From the NCBI RefSeq assembly GCF_001861355.1, contig NZ_MASN01000050.1, positions 1 to 36,064 of the forward strand: DNA of 36,064 nt. Direction: 5' to 3'. Both the position numbers and the translations under genes were made by a program. The stretch is from Natrialba sp. SSL1 (GTDB lineage: Archaea; Halobacteriota; Halobacteria; Halobacteriales; Natrialbaceae). The notes under the pieces were generated by a model that was not told where the DNA came from, searched no databases, and worked only from the letters and a program-made list of their open reading frames with translations. Shown here piece after piece: positions 16,402 through 36,064 of the stretch. How positions within the stretch are numbered: the stretch's first letter is position 1; each line of letters starts with the position of its first letter.

Positions 16402-17479
16402 GTTATACGGTCGGACGTGGGTTTTGATACTTTCCAACTCGTTGTCTCTTTATGACCGAGCACGGCGACAAAATCCCGAATCTCACAACAGAGCGAGTCC
16501 GCGAGAAACTCGCGGACGAGCGCGATCCCAAGGCGATCAAGCGATTAACTGCTGCACGTGAGTACCTCGAAAGGCTTTCTCCTGCCCAAATCGAGGACAA
16601 GTACGGCTGGTCTCGCCAAACCATCTACAACTGGTTGAATCGCTTCGAAGAGCGCGGCTTCGAGGCCGCGCTCTACGATGATCCCAAATCTGGCCGCTCA
16701 CCCAAACTTGACGATGATCAATTCGACCGTTTTGCTGACGCTCTTCAGGAACCACCGACAGAAGTTGGCTACAACGACCCAGTCTGGAGTAGTTAATTGG
16801 CTCAACAGTATCTCCTCGAAGAGTTTGACGTGGCCTATTCACAACGTCACGTCCGCCGGCTCATGCACAAGGCCGGGGTCTTGCCGAAGAGACCCCGACC
16901 GGAGCCAGCCAGTGCTGACGAGGCTGAACGAGGGGAGTTCTACGATACCGTCGAAAAAAGTAGGTCACCGGGATGAGAACGCAACTGTTGTGACGCTGGA
17001 TCAAACCAGAAAAACCGTCGGAGTAGATCTCTATTACGGTTGGTTTCCAGTTGGCGAGAGGCCGACACCTTCACTGTCGGTCTCTCGTGAAGGTGTCAAT
17101 CTCCTTGGAGCAGTCACCGAACACGGCGAAACAGAGGTTCTCGAATGCGGTGGCTCATTTACTGGAGATATAACGGTGAGGTTTTTGGCCCATCTCCAGG
17201 AAACGTTCGGAGAGAAGTTGGTCATGTTGCTGGACAAAGCGACGTACTTCACCGCCGGGGCGGTGAAGGACTTCGTTGACGGGGAACCAATAGAGTTGGT
17301 GTACTTTCCGACAGGCTCACCGGATCTGAACCCAACCGAAGAGTACTGGCGGCGGCTCAAACTCACACTTGACAATCAATACTTTGCCACGATTGCGGAA
17401 CTTCGAACGGCCATGTGGTCAGCGCTCAAAACGATCTCTCCGCCAAGAATCTATCAATACCTCTGTCCATGAGTATAAC
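16402..17479 (+). mobile_element. IS630-family insertion sequence, inactivated
   Basis: Imperfect terminal inverted repeats of about 28 bp bound the element. The left end starts GTTATAC at 16402; the right end finishes GTATAAC at 17479. Within the 28 positions about 20 match, including GGAC and a [TA]-TTGATA block. IS630 elements normally duplicate a TA dinucleotide; no clean TA pair is visible here, so the exact ends may be off by a few bases. The element sits four codons into the phosphatase-like gene. Confidence 0.7.
16452..17472 (+). pseudogene. IS630-family transposase with internal stop and frameshift
   Basis: The first part (16452-16796) is the helix-turn-helix region: AAREYLERLSPAQIEDKYGW then SRQTIYNWLNRF. 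A TAA at 16794-16796 interrupts it, after which the same frame goes on with LAQQYLLEEFDVAYSQRHVRRL. At a six-A run (16954-16959) the frame shifts by one and continues with VVTLDQTRKTVG (first catalytic Asp), MLLDKATYFTAGAVKDF (second Asp) and YFPTGSPDLNPTEEYWRRLK (catalytic Glu region). All DDE residues are present, but the stop codon and the shift should prevent a full-length product unless both are read through. A related but different N-terminal relic occurs at about 22800-23113. Confidence 0.8.
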
Positions 17480-29670: not shown

Positions 29671-30412
29671 GGCACTGTCTAGATGAGAGTTTGAGGAATG
29701 AGCAGGTGGTGGCGAGAAGTGCCTATGCAACTCGCCAACCTGCTCAGAGAGACCTTAGACGTGGATTGTGATGAGGTTTGGGAGAACGAGCGCACCCCGA
29801 CGCCCGTCAGGGTGTTCGGGGTGCGCCTGCATTCGATGGGATTGTCGGTTCGAGAGGTCGTCGCAGTGCTCGAATTACTCGGTATTGATCGCTCTCACGG
29901 CGCAATTTGGAGCTGGACGCACAAACTCTCAGAGGCCCAGAGCGATCCGCCAACGGCGGAGCCGTCGCGGGTCGCGGTCGATGAGAAACAGATTGAGGTA
30001 GACGGCGAGAAAAAGTGGTTGTACGCCGCGATCGACACAGAATCGAAACTCCTGCTCGAAATCGACGTATACAGCCGCCGCGGGACCGGCCCCGCGGCGG
30101 CGTTTCTGCATCGACTCACCGAGAAACACGAAATCGACGAGACAGAATTTCTCGTTGATGCTGGCGGCTATCTGACTGCCCTCGCTCGCCACGACTTGAG
30201 CGGTCAGCTCAACTATAGCGAGCGAAACACCGTCGAAAAGTGGTTTCAGACAGTCTCAATGCGGATCGACCGCTTTCACTCCTTCTGGCGGGGCAGTCCA
30301 GCCAGCGCACGCCGCTGGCTCAGACGTTCAGACACCACTACAACCACGATCGACCGAATCAAGCGCTGAATGGTCGAACACCAGCCGAGGAGGTGCTGAA
30401 CTAGACAGTGCC
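29671..30412 (+). mobile_element. IS6-family insertion sequence
   Basis: 742 bp bounded by perfect 12-bp inverted repeats, GGCACTGTCTAG at 29671 and CTAGACAGTGCC at 30401-30412. It carries one IS6-type transposase gene. The flanks (CCGCGTAG left, GCGAATCT right) do not form the 8-bp duplication expected for this family, so one end may result from recombination between copies. Confidence 0.8.
29698..30404 (+). pseudogene. IS6-family transposase with a late frameshift
   Basis: Reading from 29698 (or the ATG at 29728) the protein has the DDE core: SRVAVDEKQIEVDGEKKWLY (first Asp), EFLVDAGGYLTALAR (second Asp) and SERNTVEKWFQTV (Glu). Near 30300-30315, inside ARRWL, the frame slips by one: the original frame runs to a stop at 30369, while the -1 frame continues QTFRHHYNHDRPNQALNGRT then PAEEVLN and stops at 30402-30404 inside the right repeat, as expected for the intact gene. 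The catalytic residues survive, only the last 30 residues are altered, so some activity is possible. I treat it as a pseudogene. Confidence 0.75.
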
Positions 30413-31887: not shown

Positions 31888-32151
31888 TTACTCGTCGTCA
31901 CGTTCGAGTTCACCTGCGTCGATTTCTCCATCAAGATATTCTTGTCCGAGTTTTGTGATTTCATAATATCCTTTGTCTACTCGTCGAACAAGATCATATT
32001 CAACCAACACAGATAACCGACGGTTCACTCCTGTACGATCTCGGTTGATGTTTCTAGCGATGACTGTAGGTCCTAACTCTAGTCCGGTGTTGAGTACTTC
32101 AAGAACTCTTTCATCAGTTGGATTTTGCATCCACTCACCGGGTTTCCTCAT
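31888..32151 (-). CDS. PhiH1-repressor-like winged-helix regulator
   Basis: 87 residues from the ATG at 32151, reading MRKPGEWMQNPTDERVLEVL, the usual opening of PhiH1-repressor-type proteins. It continues with LGPTVIARNINRDRTGVNRRL (helix-turn-helix) and YDLVRRVDKGYYEITKLGQEYL (wing). The start at 32151 is preferred to 32175 because a TATA-like box would overlap the longer start. It faces the unknown operon that begins at 32.3 kb, and a perfect palindrome lies between them, so it is a candidate repressor of that operon and perhaps of itself. The role is inferred from family and layout. Confidence 0.75.
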   Translation of the reverse strand: MRKPGEWMQNPTDERVLEVLNTGLELGPTVIARNINRDRTGVNRRLSVLVEYDLVRRVDKGYYEITKLGQEYLDGEIDAGELERDDE

Positions 32152-32173
32152 TGCTTGAAACTTCGTACCCAGC

Positions 32174-32180
32174 ATTATAC
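32174..32180 (-). promoter_or_regulatory. TATA-box candidate for the PhiH1-like regulator
   Basis: The minus strand reads GTATAAT, 23-29 nt before the ATG at 32151. This spacing fits a leaderless transcript and supports the shorter start. Confidence 0.5.
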
Positions 32181-32238: not shown

Positions 32239-32242
32239 AGAA

Positions 32243-32250
32243 TTTATATT
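32243..32250 (+). promoter_or_regulatory. TATA-box candidate for the unknown operon
   Basis: TTTATATT at 32243-32250, directly after the palindrome. It predicts transcription from about 32270-32280, which is after the GTG at 32267, and so argues for the ATG at 32378 as the first start. Confidence 0.5.
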
Positions 32251-32377: not shown

Positions 32378-32809
32378 ATGTACGCCAACAACCCAAGAGG
32401 CCTTCAAGGTCTCGATCGACCAGATGCATCACCCGAAAACCACCCGACATGGACCATACTCATCGCACGCACTCGAGACATCCTCTTCGCGGTCGCGTGC
32501 CTTCAACAAACAACCAACCCCGCCACACCCAGAAAACTCAAACCAGCCCTCCAACGCTGGCACCCCGACCTCGAGTACAGCCAACTCCACGCCGACCTCC
32601 AGACGCTCACCCACAAGGGCCTCCTCACCGAACACCCAGCGACAAGCACCTACCACCTCACCGACAAGGCCACCAACTTCCTTGAGACCTACACGGCCCA
32701 CCTCCAACAGATCCTCCACCCAGATACGATCACCCTCGAGCTCGAGCGTCCGGTCACGTTGGGCGACATCGAACAGACCCACGCCAGACTGGTGGAAGAG
32801 AGCCGATGA
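32378..32809 (+). CDS. PadR-like winged-helix protein, first gene of the unknown operon
   Basis: 143 residues from the ATG at 32378. A longer form from GTG 32267 is open but would start before the predicted transcription start. Residues about 25-110 look like a winged helix: TWTILIARTRDILFAVACLQ, ATPRKLKPALQRWHPDLEYS, LHADLQTLTHKGLLTEHPAT and STYHLTDKATNFLE (wing), followed by a helical tail. It is probably a DNA-binding regulator of the genes that follow or a structural DNA-binding partner. Its stop overlaps the next start by 4 nt (ATGA), so translation is coupled. The coding strand is markedly rich in C and A compared with G and T. Confidence 0.6.
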   Translation: MYANNPRGLQGLDRPDASPENHPTWTILIARTRDILFAVACLQQTTNPATPRKLKPALQRWHPDLEYSQLHADLQTLTHKGLLTEHPATSTYHLTDKATNFLETYTAHLQQILHPDTITLELERPVTLGDIEQTHARLVEESR

Positions 32810-33249
32810 CCGACCCGATCACGATTCAGTGGACACCAGCAAATGCCCTCCCTCGAAGAATCACCTTCGAACCCCACGAGGACGGCTACCTCCGAATCGA
32901 ACGCGAGTGGAACGGCAGCGACTGGCGTCATTGTGGATCCGAACACACCACGGGCCTAACCACAAACCCTCCAGAAGACCCGCCAACACTCGAGGAGCTC
33001 ATCATCCAAATTCGAGACACCTGGAATCAACCCGACCCAACGGTCCTCAGCTTCACCAACGCAGAAGTCGTCGCCGCCGCCGACGGCCAACTCCGATACC
33101 GAAGCCACAACCAAGACGGCTGGTACGCAGTCACAAAAGAAGACCTCGAGAGCCATCTCCGGACGGGCGGCTACCCAACCACCAAATCCCTCTCAGAAAC
33201 GCCCTACGACCGCGCCGACTTCACCACCAACTCGATCCCCACCCAATGA
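32806..33249 (+). CDS. Unknown protein, first copy of a repeated module (module A)
   Basis: 147 residues, no family recognised. It begins ITIQWTPANALPRRITFEPH, then DGYLRIEREWNGSDWRHCG, a linker, PPTLEELIIQIRDTWNQPDP, TVLSFTNAEVVAAADGQLRY and a final half YRSHNQDGWYAVTKEDLESH and SLSETPYDRADF. The same blocks in the same order occur at 34893-35573 and, in part, at 35719 to the end. The pattern (many short beta-type stretches, conserved Trp, PRR) suggests a small beta-rich domain. It lacks signal peptide, membrane segment or obvious catalytic motif. ATGA overlaps on both sides couple it to its neighbours. Confidence 0.7.
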   Translation: MTDPITIQWTPANALPRRITFEPHEDGYLRIEREWNGSDWRHCGSEHTTGLTTNPPEDPPTLEELIIQIRDTWNQPDPTVLSFTNAEVVAAADGQLRYRSHNQDGWYAVTKEDLESHLRTGGYPTTKSLSETPYDRADFTTNSIPTQ

Positions 33250-33449
33250 GCACCCCAGACGAAGACACCTATCGAAAGACCCTCGAGGGCATCGAAACCC
33301 TCACGAACAACCTCCTCGAGGCAGCCGAAGCCGACCAAAACCTCGATCCAGCCACTCGCCAACAGCTCCTCGAGCGTCTCCACACCATCCGCGCCGAACT
33401 CCAACCGCTCTTGCTCACCTTCCGGTGGCAACCCAAAGAAGACCAATGA
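33246..33449 (+). CDS. Small helical protein in the unknown operon
   Basis: 67 residues: MSTPDEDTYRKTLEGIETLT and continuing in two amphipathic helices to FRWQPKEDQ. It starts at an ATGA overlap with module A copy 1 and ends in an ATGA overlap with the next gene, which is strong evidence that it is translated. The helical part resembles the N-terminal about 55 residues of the 226-residue protein at 34893, where it is fused to module A. It probably forms a helical hairpin or coiled-coil partner. No known family. Confidence 0.65.
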   Translation: MSTPDEDTYRKTLEGIETLTNNLLEAAEADQNLDPATRQQLLERLHTIRAELQPLLLTFRWQPKEDQ

Positions 33450-33826
33450 CTAACGACACCCCAAACCCGAACGCGGACTACGAGCAACTCAACCCACTAA
33501 GGGAGACCGTCGACTCACTCCAGGAAAACGCAATCATCCACAGCGACCTCGCAGACAACAGACGCCCGGTCCGACACTGTCTCTTCCAGATCGGACTCCA
33601 CATCCAGAAGGTACGTGAGATACTCCCTGATTCGGACTCAGTAGCCGAACTCGTCATCCAGTCAGTGATAGCTGCGGGCGGGGCATCTCTTGACCGTTCC
33701 TGTGAGATACGCATCGACAAACCACGTCAGGAAACCAGAGCTGAACCGACATACAACACCCTCGAGGCGAAGACCCCCCACACAGCTTCGCCACAACCCC
33801 ATCTCGGTGGTGAGACCGATGGATGA
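33446..33826 (+). CDS. Unknown protein in the coupled operon
   Basis: 126 residues from the ATG at 33446 (ATGA overlap with the previous stop); an ATG further upstream in the same frame is not needed. The first 85 residues look helical (YEQLNPLRETVDSLQENAII, RPVRHCLFQIGLHIQKVREI), with a possible second helical block DSVAELVIQSVIAAGG; the last 35 are Pro/Thr-rich and likely disordered. It has no signal peptide, membrane segment or recognised motif. It overlaps the next gene by 8 nt. Confidence 0.6.
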   Translation: MTNDTPNPNADYEQLNPLRETVDSLQENAIIHSDLADNRRPVRHCLFQIGLHIQKVREILPDSDSVAELVIQSVIAAGGASLDRSCEIRIDKPRQETRAEPTYNTLEAKTPHTASPQPHLGGETDG

Positions 33827-34865
33827 CTTCCAGGCCCGCCAACTCGCCCTCAGTCTCCAGACGATCCCACCCGAAGCCCGCCTCGAGATTACCTGGACCG
33901 ACGACAACACCGAGACAACCCAGACCGGCGTCGTCACCGATTACGATCCCGAAACCGCCTATCGAAAACTCGAGACCGACGACCGAACACTTGAGCTCAT
34001 CCCGGCAGGCGACCAAAGCCAAATCACCGTCACGGAACCAACCGCGACGACGACCCATACCCTTGGTGAACTCACGGCCGTCGATATCGAAGCGGTGCCT
34101 ATCTTCGAGGCCCCACTGACCGACGAGGGCTTCGAGGTCCCCGAGCCACTACTCGGCCTCACCGGCTACGTCACAGTTGACCTCCCGACGCGAAACCACG
34201 TCATCAACCTCGCAGATCACGGCCTCCAACAAACAGATTATCGCCTGATTGGCAACATCGGGACCGACCCCGACCCGAAGCTGCTCCCAGACGAAGTCAC
34301 AGCCATCCGGCCGGACACCGGGCCCCACTACCATATCAAGGTTATCGACGAACGCACCACGCCGGACAGCCACGAGTACGAGACAGCCGCCACCGACGAC
34401 CACCTCAAACAGCTCCGTCAGACGGTCAGCGAACTCAAAGCACACACACTCTGGGACACCACAGCAACCAGCAAAGATGTCTCCAGACAACTCATCTCGC
34501 TTGATGAACGACTCCGAAGAGCCCACCGGGAACTGTGTGTGGATGGGACACCACCCTCCCAACAGGTCGAACCCGCTGACGATTCCGTCGATGTCGAGAC
34601 GGTTGCTGCCCTCGAGGGCGAACTCGAAACCTACATCCAGACACTACAGGAGACACTCGAGGCCGACACATTCGAGCCAATCGAAACACACCTTCGTGAG
34701 GCCAGACTCATACTGCGAACACTCCGCCACATTCTGGGCGACGAGAAACGCACCACCCAGACCACAGCGACCGACACTGATCCATCACTCCCCGACCTCG
34801 AAGACTGGATCATCGAACCAAATGCACCCGCGCCCATCCAGCGAGGTGACCACGATGGCGAGTAA
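33819..34865 (+). CDS. Unknown 348-residue protein, beta-rich N-terminus and helical C-terminus
   Basis: Start ATG at 33819, overlapping the previous stop by 8 nt; a longer form to 33690 would run over the preceding gene. Residues about 1-75 look beta-rich (RLEITWTDDNTETTQTGVVT, RTLELIPAGDQSQITV), like a small SH3/Sm-type barrel. A middle block around LTGYVTVDLPTRNHVINLAD and LIGNIGTDPDPKLLPDEVTA follows, and the last 130 residues are helical with LETYIQTLQETLEADTFEPI. No known family or catalytic motif. The stop is 27 nt before the next gene; a 13-codon frame (34855-34896, MASNLSAPTEGHR) bridges the gap with an ATGA overlap and could keep translation coupled. Confidence 0.65.
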   Translation: MDDFQARQLALSLQTIPPEARLEITWTDDNTETTQTGVVTDYDPETAYRKLETDDRTLELIPAGDQSQITVTEPTATTTHTLGELTAVDIEAVPIFEAPLTDEGFEVPEPLLGLTGYVTVDLPTRNHVINLADHGLQQTDYRLIGNIGTDPDPKLLPDEVTAIRPDTGPHYHIKVIDERTTPDSHEYETAATDDHLKQLRQTVSELKAHTLWDTTATSKDVSRQLISLDERLRRAHRELCVDGTPPSQQVEPADDSVDVETVAALEGELETYIQTLQETLEADTFEPIETHLREARLILRTLRHILGDEKRTTQTTATDTDPSLPDLEDWIIEPNAPAPIQRGDHDGE

Positions 34866-34892
34866 CCTGTCAGCCCCGACGGAGGGCCACCG

Positions 34893-35573
34893 ATGAGTGA
34901 AGACCAACAACACCAGCAAGCCCTCGCGGCGATCGATGCCACCCTCGAGGCCTTGCTCACAGACCTCACAGCCACGGACGAACGTGGGTCTCGGGCAGAC
35001 ACACTCGCGGGGCTGCGACAGCTCAGAGCAACGATCGAGACGCTCCAGCGTCGGAGTTCTCACACCGAGTCCGACAGCCTCACCGTACAGTGGACACCCA
35101 CCGACAACCCTCCGCGACGACTCATCATCGACTCCAGTCACCATAGCGAGGGCTGGAGCCACCGCCGCCTCGAGTGGGATGGCAGCGGCTGGCGGCCACG
35201 AAGTCGCGAGAGTGTCGACGACGTCGCTATCCGTGCCCCGTCGGCAATCCAACAGCCGATCCTAACTGATCCACCCCGACTCGAGACACTCCAAGAGAGG
35301 CTTCGGGGAACGTGGACCCAACCGGAGCCACTGGCACTCGTCTTTGGAGCGACGACAACACAGGACCAGGCCATCGTCGTCGCGGTCGATGGCGACCTCC
35401 GATACCGCGACCGAAGCGATGATCGGTGGTATTCGATTTCCGAGCCAGTCCTCAAACACTGTCTTCAACAGCGGGGCCAGCCCACACTGACGTCTCTCTC
35501 GGAGACCTCACTCGAGCGAGCCCAGTTCGTTGATCGCCAAGAGAACAACCCGACAACAAACTCACAGCCATGA
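34893..35573 (+). CDS. Helical domain fused to module A (second copy)
   Basis: 226 residues. The first about 55 residues (ALAAIDATLEALLTDLTATD ... LRQLRATIETLQR) resemble the separate 67-residue protein at 33246. From about residue 63, LTVQWTPTDNPPRRLIIDSS, EGWSHRRLEWDGSGWRPRS, PPRLETLQERLRGTWTQPEP, LALVFG, VVAVDGDLRYRDRSDDRWYS and SLSETSLERAQF match module A copy 1 block by block. This is a fusion (or, at 32.8-33.4 kb, a split) of two parts that therefore probably act together. It has no signal peptide, membrane segment or known catalytic motif. ATGA overlap with the next small gene. Confidence 0.7.
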   Translation: MSEDQQHQQALAAIDATLEALLTDLTATDERGSRADTLAGLRQLRATIETLQRRSSHTESDSLTVQWTPTDNPPRRLIIDSSHHSEGWSHRRLEWDGSGWRPRSRESVDDVAIRAPSAIQQPILTDPPRLETLQERLRGTWTQPEPLALVFGATTTQDQAIVVAVDGDLRYRDRSDDRWYSISEPVLKHCLQQRGQPTLTSLSETSLERAQFVDRQENNPTTNSQP

Positions 35574-35722
35574 TGAGCAGTCCACGACTCACGAGTTCGA
35601 CGACGGCCACCGACGGCAGTGTCCCATCCACTCCCGTACTCGAGACCAACGCAGGTTCGCTCCTCGAACAACCACCGAACACCGACACGCACCAGAACGG
35701 CCGCAACCGGAGGGGACGATGA
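35570..35722 (+). CDS. Small Ser/Thr/Asn-rich protein in the unknown operon
   Basis: 50 residues, MMSSPRLTSSTTATDGSVPS then a polar tail ending RNRRGR. It is supported only by its position: the start overlaps the preceding stop (ATGA at 35570) and its stop overlaps the next start (ATGA at 35719). The composition suggests a disordered chain. It may be a true peptide or a device that keeps ribosomes moving along the transcript. Confidence 0.4.
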   Translation: MMSSPRLTSSTTATDGSVPSTPVLETNAGSLLEQPPNTDTHQNGRNRRGR

Positions 35723-36064
35723 CACCGATGCACGTCCAGTGGGAGCCACGCGATGGCCCACCACGACGAGTTACCTTCGAGCCGGCCGAAGAGGGCTGGC
35801 ATCGACGAACCGAGATCTGGGATGGCCAAGAGTGGCACGAACAGGCCCTCGATCTCGTTACAGAGCCGTCAGTCTATGCCCCCGATCACGCGACGGAGAC
35901 GGAACAGACACCGCCAACGCTACCATCACTCCTGGATGGACCGCATCTGACATGGGGTGACGATAACCCCGAAGTTCTCGTCTTCGACAGACCGGGTAGT
36001 CCGATCGCTATTGGCACACCTGCTGGCATCCTGCGGTACTACAGCCACCAGCTCCCAACAGCCC
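35719..36064 (+). CDS. Module A, third copy, cut by the window end
   Basis: 115 codons visible, open to the end. It starts MTPMHVQWEPRDGPPRRVTF after a GGAGGGG ribosome site (35709-35715), then EEGWHRRTEIWDGQEWHEQA, PPTLPSLLDGPHLTWGDDNP, EVLVFDRPGSPIAIGTPAGI and LRYYSHQ. These blocks match the two earlier copies (QW-P, PRR, W-G--W, P-P-L, a strand block, and L-R-Y). It shows that the operon goes on and that the module is repeated at least three times. Function unknown. Confidence 0.7.
   Translation, partial: MTPMHVQWEPRDGPPRRVTFEPAEEGWHRRTEIWDGQEWHEQALDLVTEPSVYAPDHATETEQTPPTLPSLLDGPHLTWGDDNPEVLVFDRPGSPIAIGTPAGILRYYSHQLPTA

Follow-up and report, generated by a model that had tools for sequence, protein, structure and literature searches.

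A coupled operon of module and hairpin proteins in Natrialba sp. SSL1, probably part of a restriction-like nuclease system of Halobacteriales

Eight consecutive genes at the end of a haloarchaeal contig, three of them sharing one protein module, raise a simple question: what system do they encode? They lie in the window analysed here, the entire 36,064-nucleotide contig C50 (NZ_MASN01000050.1) of Natrialba sp. SSL1, whose assembly comprises 4.58 Mb in 61 contigs. The contig stops at 36064, inside the last gene (o8), and the operon is thus interrupted by the assembly. A sequence-only reading of this DNA had considered the function not inferable. This was too pessimistic, as related loci connect these genes with a restriction nuclease of the Mrr-like kind and sometimes with genes of HRAMP, a CRISPR derivative. 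The co-translated genes most likely belong to a defence-type DNA-restriction system that is missing from the family libraries searched.

Operon layout and the repeated module

The genes (o1 to o8, 32378-36064) are all on the plus strand, and the coupling first read from the sequence was borne out when the junctions were inspected base by base. ATGA overlaps of 4 nt join o1/o2, o2/o3, o3/o4, o6/o7 and o7/o8, the o4/o5 overlap is 8 nt, and the 27-nt gap between o5 and o6 is spanned, as had been noticed, by a putative 13-codon frame (34855..34896, plus strand). Upstream of o1, the TATA-like AATTTATATTG (32240..32250, plus strand) may be an archaeal promoter, judged by its letters. Purifying selection acts on most of the frames, at dN/dS 0.10-0.46 for most pairs compared, the exception being o4. 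Elsewhere, the contig carries many insertion sequences among surface-polysaccharide genes, and transposase-like ORFs occur at 29698-30369 and 16678-17472.

The claim that three genes carry a common module also held. The module, about 150 aa long, stands alone in o2 (32806..33249, about 147 aa), forms residues 60-213 of o6 behind a helical hairpin at residues 3-53 (34893..35573; protein B, with 31 relatives in alignment A3), and recurs in o8 (35719..36064), which is cut off by the contig end. Thus 32806, 34893 and 35719 are correct as starts, except that in o6 the module proper begins only near residue 60. BLASTP E values are 6e-32 for o2/o6, 8e-17 for o2/o8 and 2e-12 for o6/o8, and in the proposed comparison with 1000 shuffled sequences the same pairs reach Z scores of 42, 20 and 19. 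The o8 gene is 89% identical in DNA over 330 bp to a copy on another contig of this genome (C48:404-733; dN/dS 0.19). Between o6 and o8 lies o7 (35570..35722), a doubtful 50-aa frame of low complexity whose coupling is one of position only; no relative supports it, and the C48 copy has no counterpart between B and the module.

The earlier view that the module belongs to no recognised family stood up to library searches, which found it in no Pfam, PHROGs or NCBIfam family, and protein B has no PADLOC match. An AlphaFold2 model of protein B has a mean pLDDT of 76, exceeding 90 in the module core. Known folds for the module were sought with Foldseek and VIA, and the matches were unconvincing (best whole-model E 0.02), which is not proof of a new fold; the module part aligned with pieces of beta-propeller-like chains over about 50 residues, at Z 5.6 or less.

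A profile search found module-like matches in 93 of 392 genomes of the order. About 36 of the matches listed span the whole module, and the remainder are mostly 60-110-aa ORFs resembling its N-terminal half. In a phylum-wide sample of 393 genomes, every module match fell within the same order. The suggestion that the genes derive from an integrated element or virus holds in part: relatives lie on plasmids and in variable regions, but neither the module nor the nuclease described below has a relative in 2.9 million viral contigs, and a viral origin was therefore rejected. Phage records gave one small half-module: the haloarchaeal virus HJTV-4 (OP374082.1, 22267-22386, minus strand) encodes a small protein that corresponds to the module's N-terminal half. 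Natrinema thermotolerans carries this stretch as well, in a region that resembles a provirus (L048:5980-6174).

The nuclease cassette in related loci

In its compact form the gene set is a three-gene cassette, consisting of a winged helix-turn-helix (wHTH) protein with a DUF7344 domain, protein B (hairpin plus module), and protein C (hairpins plus nuclease). It occurs on pNRC100 and on many Halorubrum and Halobacterium replicons, and the B and C genes overlap, by 4 or 14 nt, in 22 of the 25 loci. Searches with tblastn of all fetched loci found a nuclease gene within a few kb of every complete module locus that lies away from contig ends, and a nuclease profile matched 41 of the 392 Halobacteriales genomes sampled. 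The conserved parts are a wHTH repressor in divergent orientation; a second wHTH protein, either o1 or DUF7344; B, which may be split into o2+o3; and a protein of the C type, in which tandem hairpins precede a PD-(D/E)XK nuclease of the Mrr_cat type; o5 additionally has a beta domain.

Several lines of evidence identify the nuclease. Against the curated Pfam Mrr_cat cut-off of 21 bits, a copy on contig C23 of this genome scores 24.4, the pHLAC01 protein HLAC_RS19760 24.2, and the L047 and L120 proteins 23.2 and 21.9; that of Halobacterium salinarum falls just under it (20.4), and the copy on contig C11 of this genome has no Mrr_cat match. Across 31 sequences E170, D196 and K217 are invariant and position 215 is Q or E, and alignment A4 conserves WLE, E-x-D and [QE]CK[DN]W. 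For the L094 protein, an AlphaFold2 model (mean pLDDT 66, about 80 in the nuclease core) displays a PD-(D/E)XK core and two helical hairpins. Foldseek matched the model to MspJI, Cdn1, AspBHI and Can2 at probabilities of 0.97-1.00, with E values above 0.001. MspJI and AspBHI, related by fold, are modification-dependent enzymes. With VIA, the nuclease domain aligned with AF1548 over 105 residues (Z 13.2, rmsd 2.7), and with NucS/EndoMS (Z 11.6), FokI (Z 9.4) and AspBHI. The hairpins also gave ferritin/Dps-like matches, at Z about 10, which we take to reflect generic four-helix bundles.

Two kinds of putative regulator accompany these genes. The first operon gene, o1 (32378..32809), encodes a winged-HTH protein (HTH_45 E 0.005; phrog_4278 E 2e-4; dN/dS 0.32) whose one PADLOC match is a weak winged-helix hit (E 0.012). 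Its orthologues head the same operon in L009, L051, L052/L095, L072/L121 and L073, and o1 and DUF7344 are alternative wHTH proteins in this leading position. On the minus strand, a small repressor-like winged-HTH gene (31888..32175; Pfam HVO_A0261_N / HTH_45, below cut-off) diverges from the operon. In all 9 loci where a homologue is present (37-58% identity), solo-nuclease loci included, it stands 5' of the cassette or nuclease in divergent orientation, and the gene is therefore probably part of the system. A dedicated multi-protein system beside a repressor-like gene, as the sequence-only reading had supposed, agrees with this arrangement and with the recurrence of the gene set across Halobacteriales.

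A divergent repressor, a plasmid location, the absence of a methylase partner and the tight translational coupling of B and C could also describe a plasmid-maintenance or toxin-antitoxin-like addiction cassette, in which the nuclease would be the toxin, B or the module its restraint and the wHTH proteins autoregulators. We regard this as quite improbable: the size and modularity exceed those of usual toxin-antitoxin pairs, nucleases of the same family occur alone, without B (L123, L125-L130), and the cassette has ties to HRAMP and other defence genes. B and C distances are correlated over 20 loci (r about 0.8), as expected because the genes are linked.

Other genes recur beside these loci. A coiled-coil gene often follows the nuclease (L009:12987-13865; L132:626-1462; L047:9840-10742); its C-terminal domain is highly conserved (69-91% identity), and it is also found 3' of small half-module ORFs in L077, L081 and L087. 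An HTH-containing hypothetical protein of 930-1130 aa (L125:5848-8688; L128:5896-8697; L130:5001-7442; L043:310-3696), possibly a plasmid replication or regulatory protein, is encoded 5' of solo nucleases and also 5' of the pNRC100 cassette.

The remaining window genes can be mapped onto B and C. The helical hairpin encoded by o3 (33246..33449; dN/dS 0.21 against L051) is the one found at the N-terminus of B (E 6e-11 and 97% probability in hhalign); o6 corresponds to B, and o2 plus o3 to a split B. Kinship of the B hairpin to the C hairpins was tested but not shown, at hhalign probabilities of 15% or less. The o4 gene (33446..33826) is the truncated 5' end of a C gene, with the first hairpin only: positions 33429-33652 are 83% identical in DNA to gene C of L051, the likeness ends there, and the profile of C matches 33446-33646. 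It represents the first ~70 codons of C. Its dN/dS of 0.58-0.68 suggests relaxed constraint. Similarity to the o5 region of the L095 type starts near 33812, and o5 itself (33819..34865) comprises a beta-rich domain and two helical hairpins, without a nuclease domain; these hairpins correspond in order to C hairpins 1 and 2 (hhalign 91% and 81%). Its resemblance to the N-terminal region of the nuclease suggests that o5 is the N-terminal half of such a protein. Rosetta-stone fusions agree with both assignments, as o3 plus module equals B and o5 plus nuclease equals HLAC_RS19760, in which an o5-like architecture is fused to the Mrr_cat nuclease. The switches in DNA similarity at 33652 and about 33812 therefore make the window a mosaic of a truncated nuclease gene and an o5 that resembles the N-terminal half of a nuclease.

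Might the operon then have decayed into a mostly non-functional relic of a mosaic mobile region? The truncation and relaxed constraint of o4, the recombinational junctions, the doubtful o7 and degraded copies on contigs C59 and C48 would fit. We find this scarcely probable, as o1, o2, o3, o6 and o8 have intact frames with dN/dS of 0.19-0.44, and two nuclease copies of this genome, on contigs C23 and C26, have a dN/dS of 0.10.

There is no nuclease domain inside the window, which ends at 36064, and further copies in the same genome bear on where it might be. These lie on C11, C48 and C59. C11 carries a B gene followed by a gene with an o4-like N-terminus and a nuclease C-terminus. Read in the direction of the operon, C48 opens with B and an o8-like module, followed by an o5N-like gene that is cut off by the contig end. 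Two further nuclease genes open other contigs, starting at about position 286 of C23 and at position 3 of C26; these two contigs are 89% identical over 1066 bp, the same identity as between o8 and the C48 copy. The simplest reading would be that a recent duplication gave two loci and that the assembler split both, leaving the 5' halves on C50 and C48 and the 3' halves on C23 and C26. We propose two reasons why the window has no nuclease domain: one copy has decayed to o4, and the second lies beyond the contig end, where it would follow o8. Adjoining the C23 nuclease is a gene (L131:1805-5017) for a 1070-aa protein with about 30 near-identical repeats of ~20 aa (F-T-DGDGDV-F), which terminates in an ion-channel-like membrane segment.

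Relation to HRAMP

HRAMP (haloarchaeal RAMP) is a CRISPR derivative that combines homologues of Cas5 and Cas7 with nucleases and uncharacterised proteins (PMC8730458). In L051, the operon holds between o5N and C the genes for a Cas7-like protein (E 3e-6 to PADLOC Csm3) and a Cas5-like protein (E 5e-7 to Cmr3), with that for a conserved middle protein between these two; this HRAMP core occupies L051:6950-9549 (G179 C8), embedded in the module/nuclease operon. On pAArc-Mg-01 (L135), the middle protein, Cas5 and a DEDDh nuclease are followed by o5N-like, module, nuclease and coiled-coil genes. The gene sets of both loci match the published account of HRAMP (PMC8730458), and the nuclease family is common to the cassette and to these two HRAMP loci. 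The middle protein was not seen in those loci of this genome that were read. Within 37 kb, the wider pAArc-Mg-01 region (NZ_CP027032.1, 68400-104966) combines the cassette and HRAMP-type genes with Piwi, TnpB and a McrB-like/McrC-like pair, and is likely a defence island.

Such loci raise the possibility that the operon serves HRAMP as an accessory block, supplying its nuclease arm, and that the Cas5/Cas7 part has been lost or left unassembled here. Besides L051 and L135, a Cas7 remnant adjoins the module in L120, the nuclease lies less than 2 kb from Cas5 in G178 and G257 as it does in G179, and published HRAMP loci include additional nucleases (PMC8730458). Nevertheless, we consider this explanation unlikely. 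Neither queries with the L051 Cas7 and Cas5 proteins nor the Cas5 profile found Cas5 or Cas7 in the window or in this genome, whose assembly is broken at the locus. The Cas5 profile matches 107 of 392 genomes; only 1 of the 20 best Cas5 (HRAMP) loci carries the cassette (about 1.5 kb of flank read per side), and nearly all cassettes are without Cas5/Cas7. Finally, L051 has a 50-bp repeat of the o3/C junction downstream of Cas5, which suggests that the HRAMP genes were inserted later into a pre-existing o3-C operon.

We conclude that the cassette swaps parts with HRAMP, at times within one operon, and is restricted to haloarchaea as HRAMP is, but is not HRAMP in this genome. It is possible, and we put this forward tentatively, that module and hairpin proteins with the Mrr-like nuclease form an undescribed, independent haloarchaeal defence complex that has repeatedly exchanged parts with HRAMP.

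Probable restriction-like defence and its significance

The operon is probably the 5' part of a restriction-like nuclease system specific to Halobacteriales, and its most likely function would be to defend the cell from foreign DNA, the nuclease being the effector. We favour this because of the type of nuclease, the patchy occurrence and plasmid location of the genes, and the linkage in a few loci to HRAMP, pAgo, McrBC-like and methylase genes. The defence reading is weakened because most neighbours are ordinary plasmid genes (integrases, transposases, TnpB, ParA). A PADLOC scan of the flanks gave scattered matches, without a control set, and PADLOC has no model for the cassette, with A, B, C and o5 all unmatched.

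In the mechanism we envisage, B and the hairpin regions would form a complex in which the nuclease is held and regulated, the module would sense or bind the target, the nuclease would cut foreign DNA, and the wHTH genes would repress the operon; defence would be the benefit. No methylase is linked, and the closest working model is therefore type IV restriction, modification-dependent or otherwise self-sparing. A type IIG-like methylase gene is present at the pHLAC01 locus.

Like Mrr-like and type IV restriction endonucleases (PF04471; AF1548 fold), the cassette nuclease has a PD-(D/E)XK core with E, D and [QE]xK in a common C-K-D-W context, and likewise no methylase. It differs in having helical hairpins and a beta domain in place of a target-recognition region, and in the close family, known from sequence, it always travels with a module protein. 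Archaeal restriction-modification systems in REBASE (PMC10609329) also have a restriction-type nuclease, whereas the cassette has no linked methyltransferase.

The plasmid pNRC100 of Halobacterium salinarum is well studied, and its "hypothetical" genes VNG_RS12775-12780-14380 (wHTH with DUF7344, B and C) now emerge as a conserved three-part nuclease cassette. They resemble the window operon in parts, B being a relative of o6 and C a relative of o4/o5 plus the nuclease, whereas in the window the parts are split, duplicated or truncated and the wHTH protein is a different one. H. salinarum and Haloferax are genetically tractable, and the function of the cassette is therefore directly testable. 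If it is defence, haloarchaea have one more system absent from PADLOC. To our knowledge, HRAMP lacks CRISPR effectors. A defensive cassette would offer a testable idea of how HRAMP could destroy invaders, and a HRAMP-independent complex that swaps parts with it would, if real, explain the source of its DNA-cutting arm.
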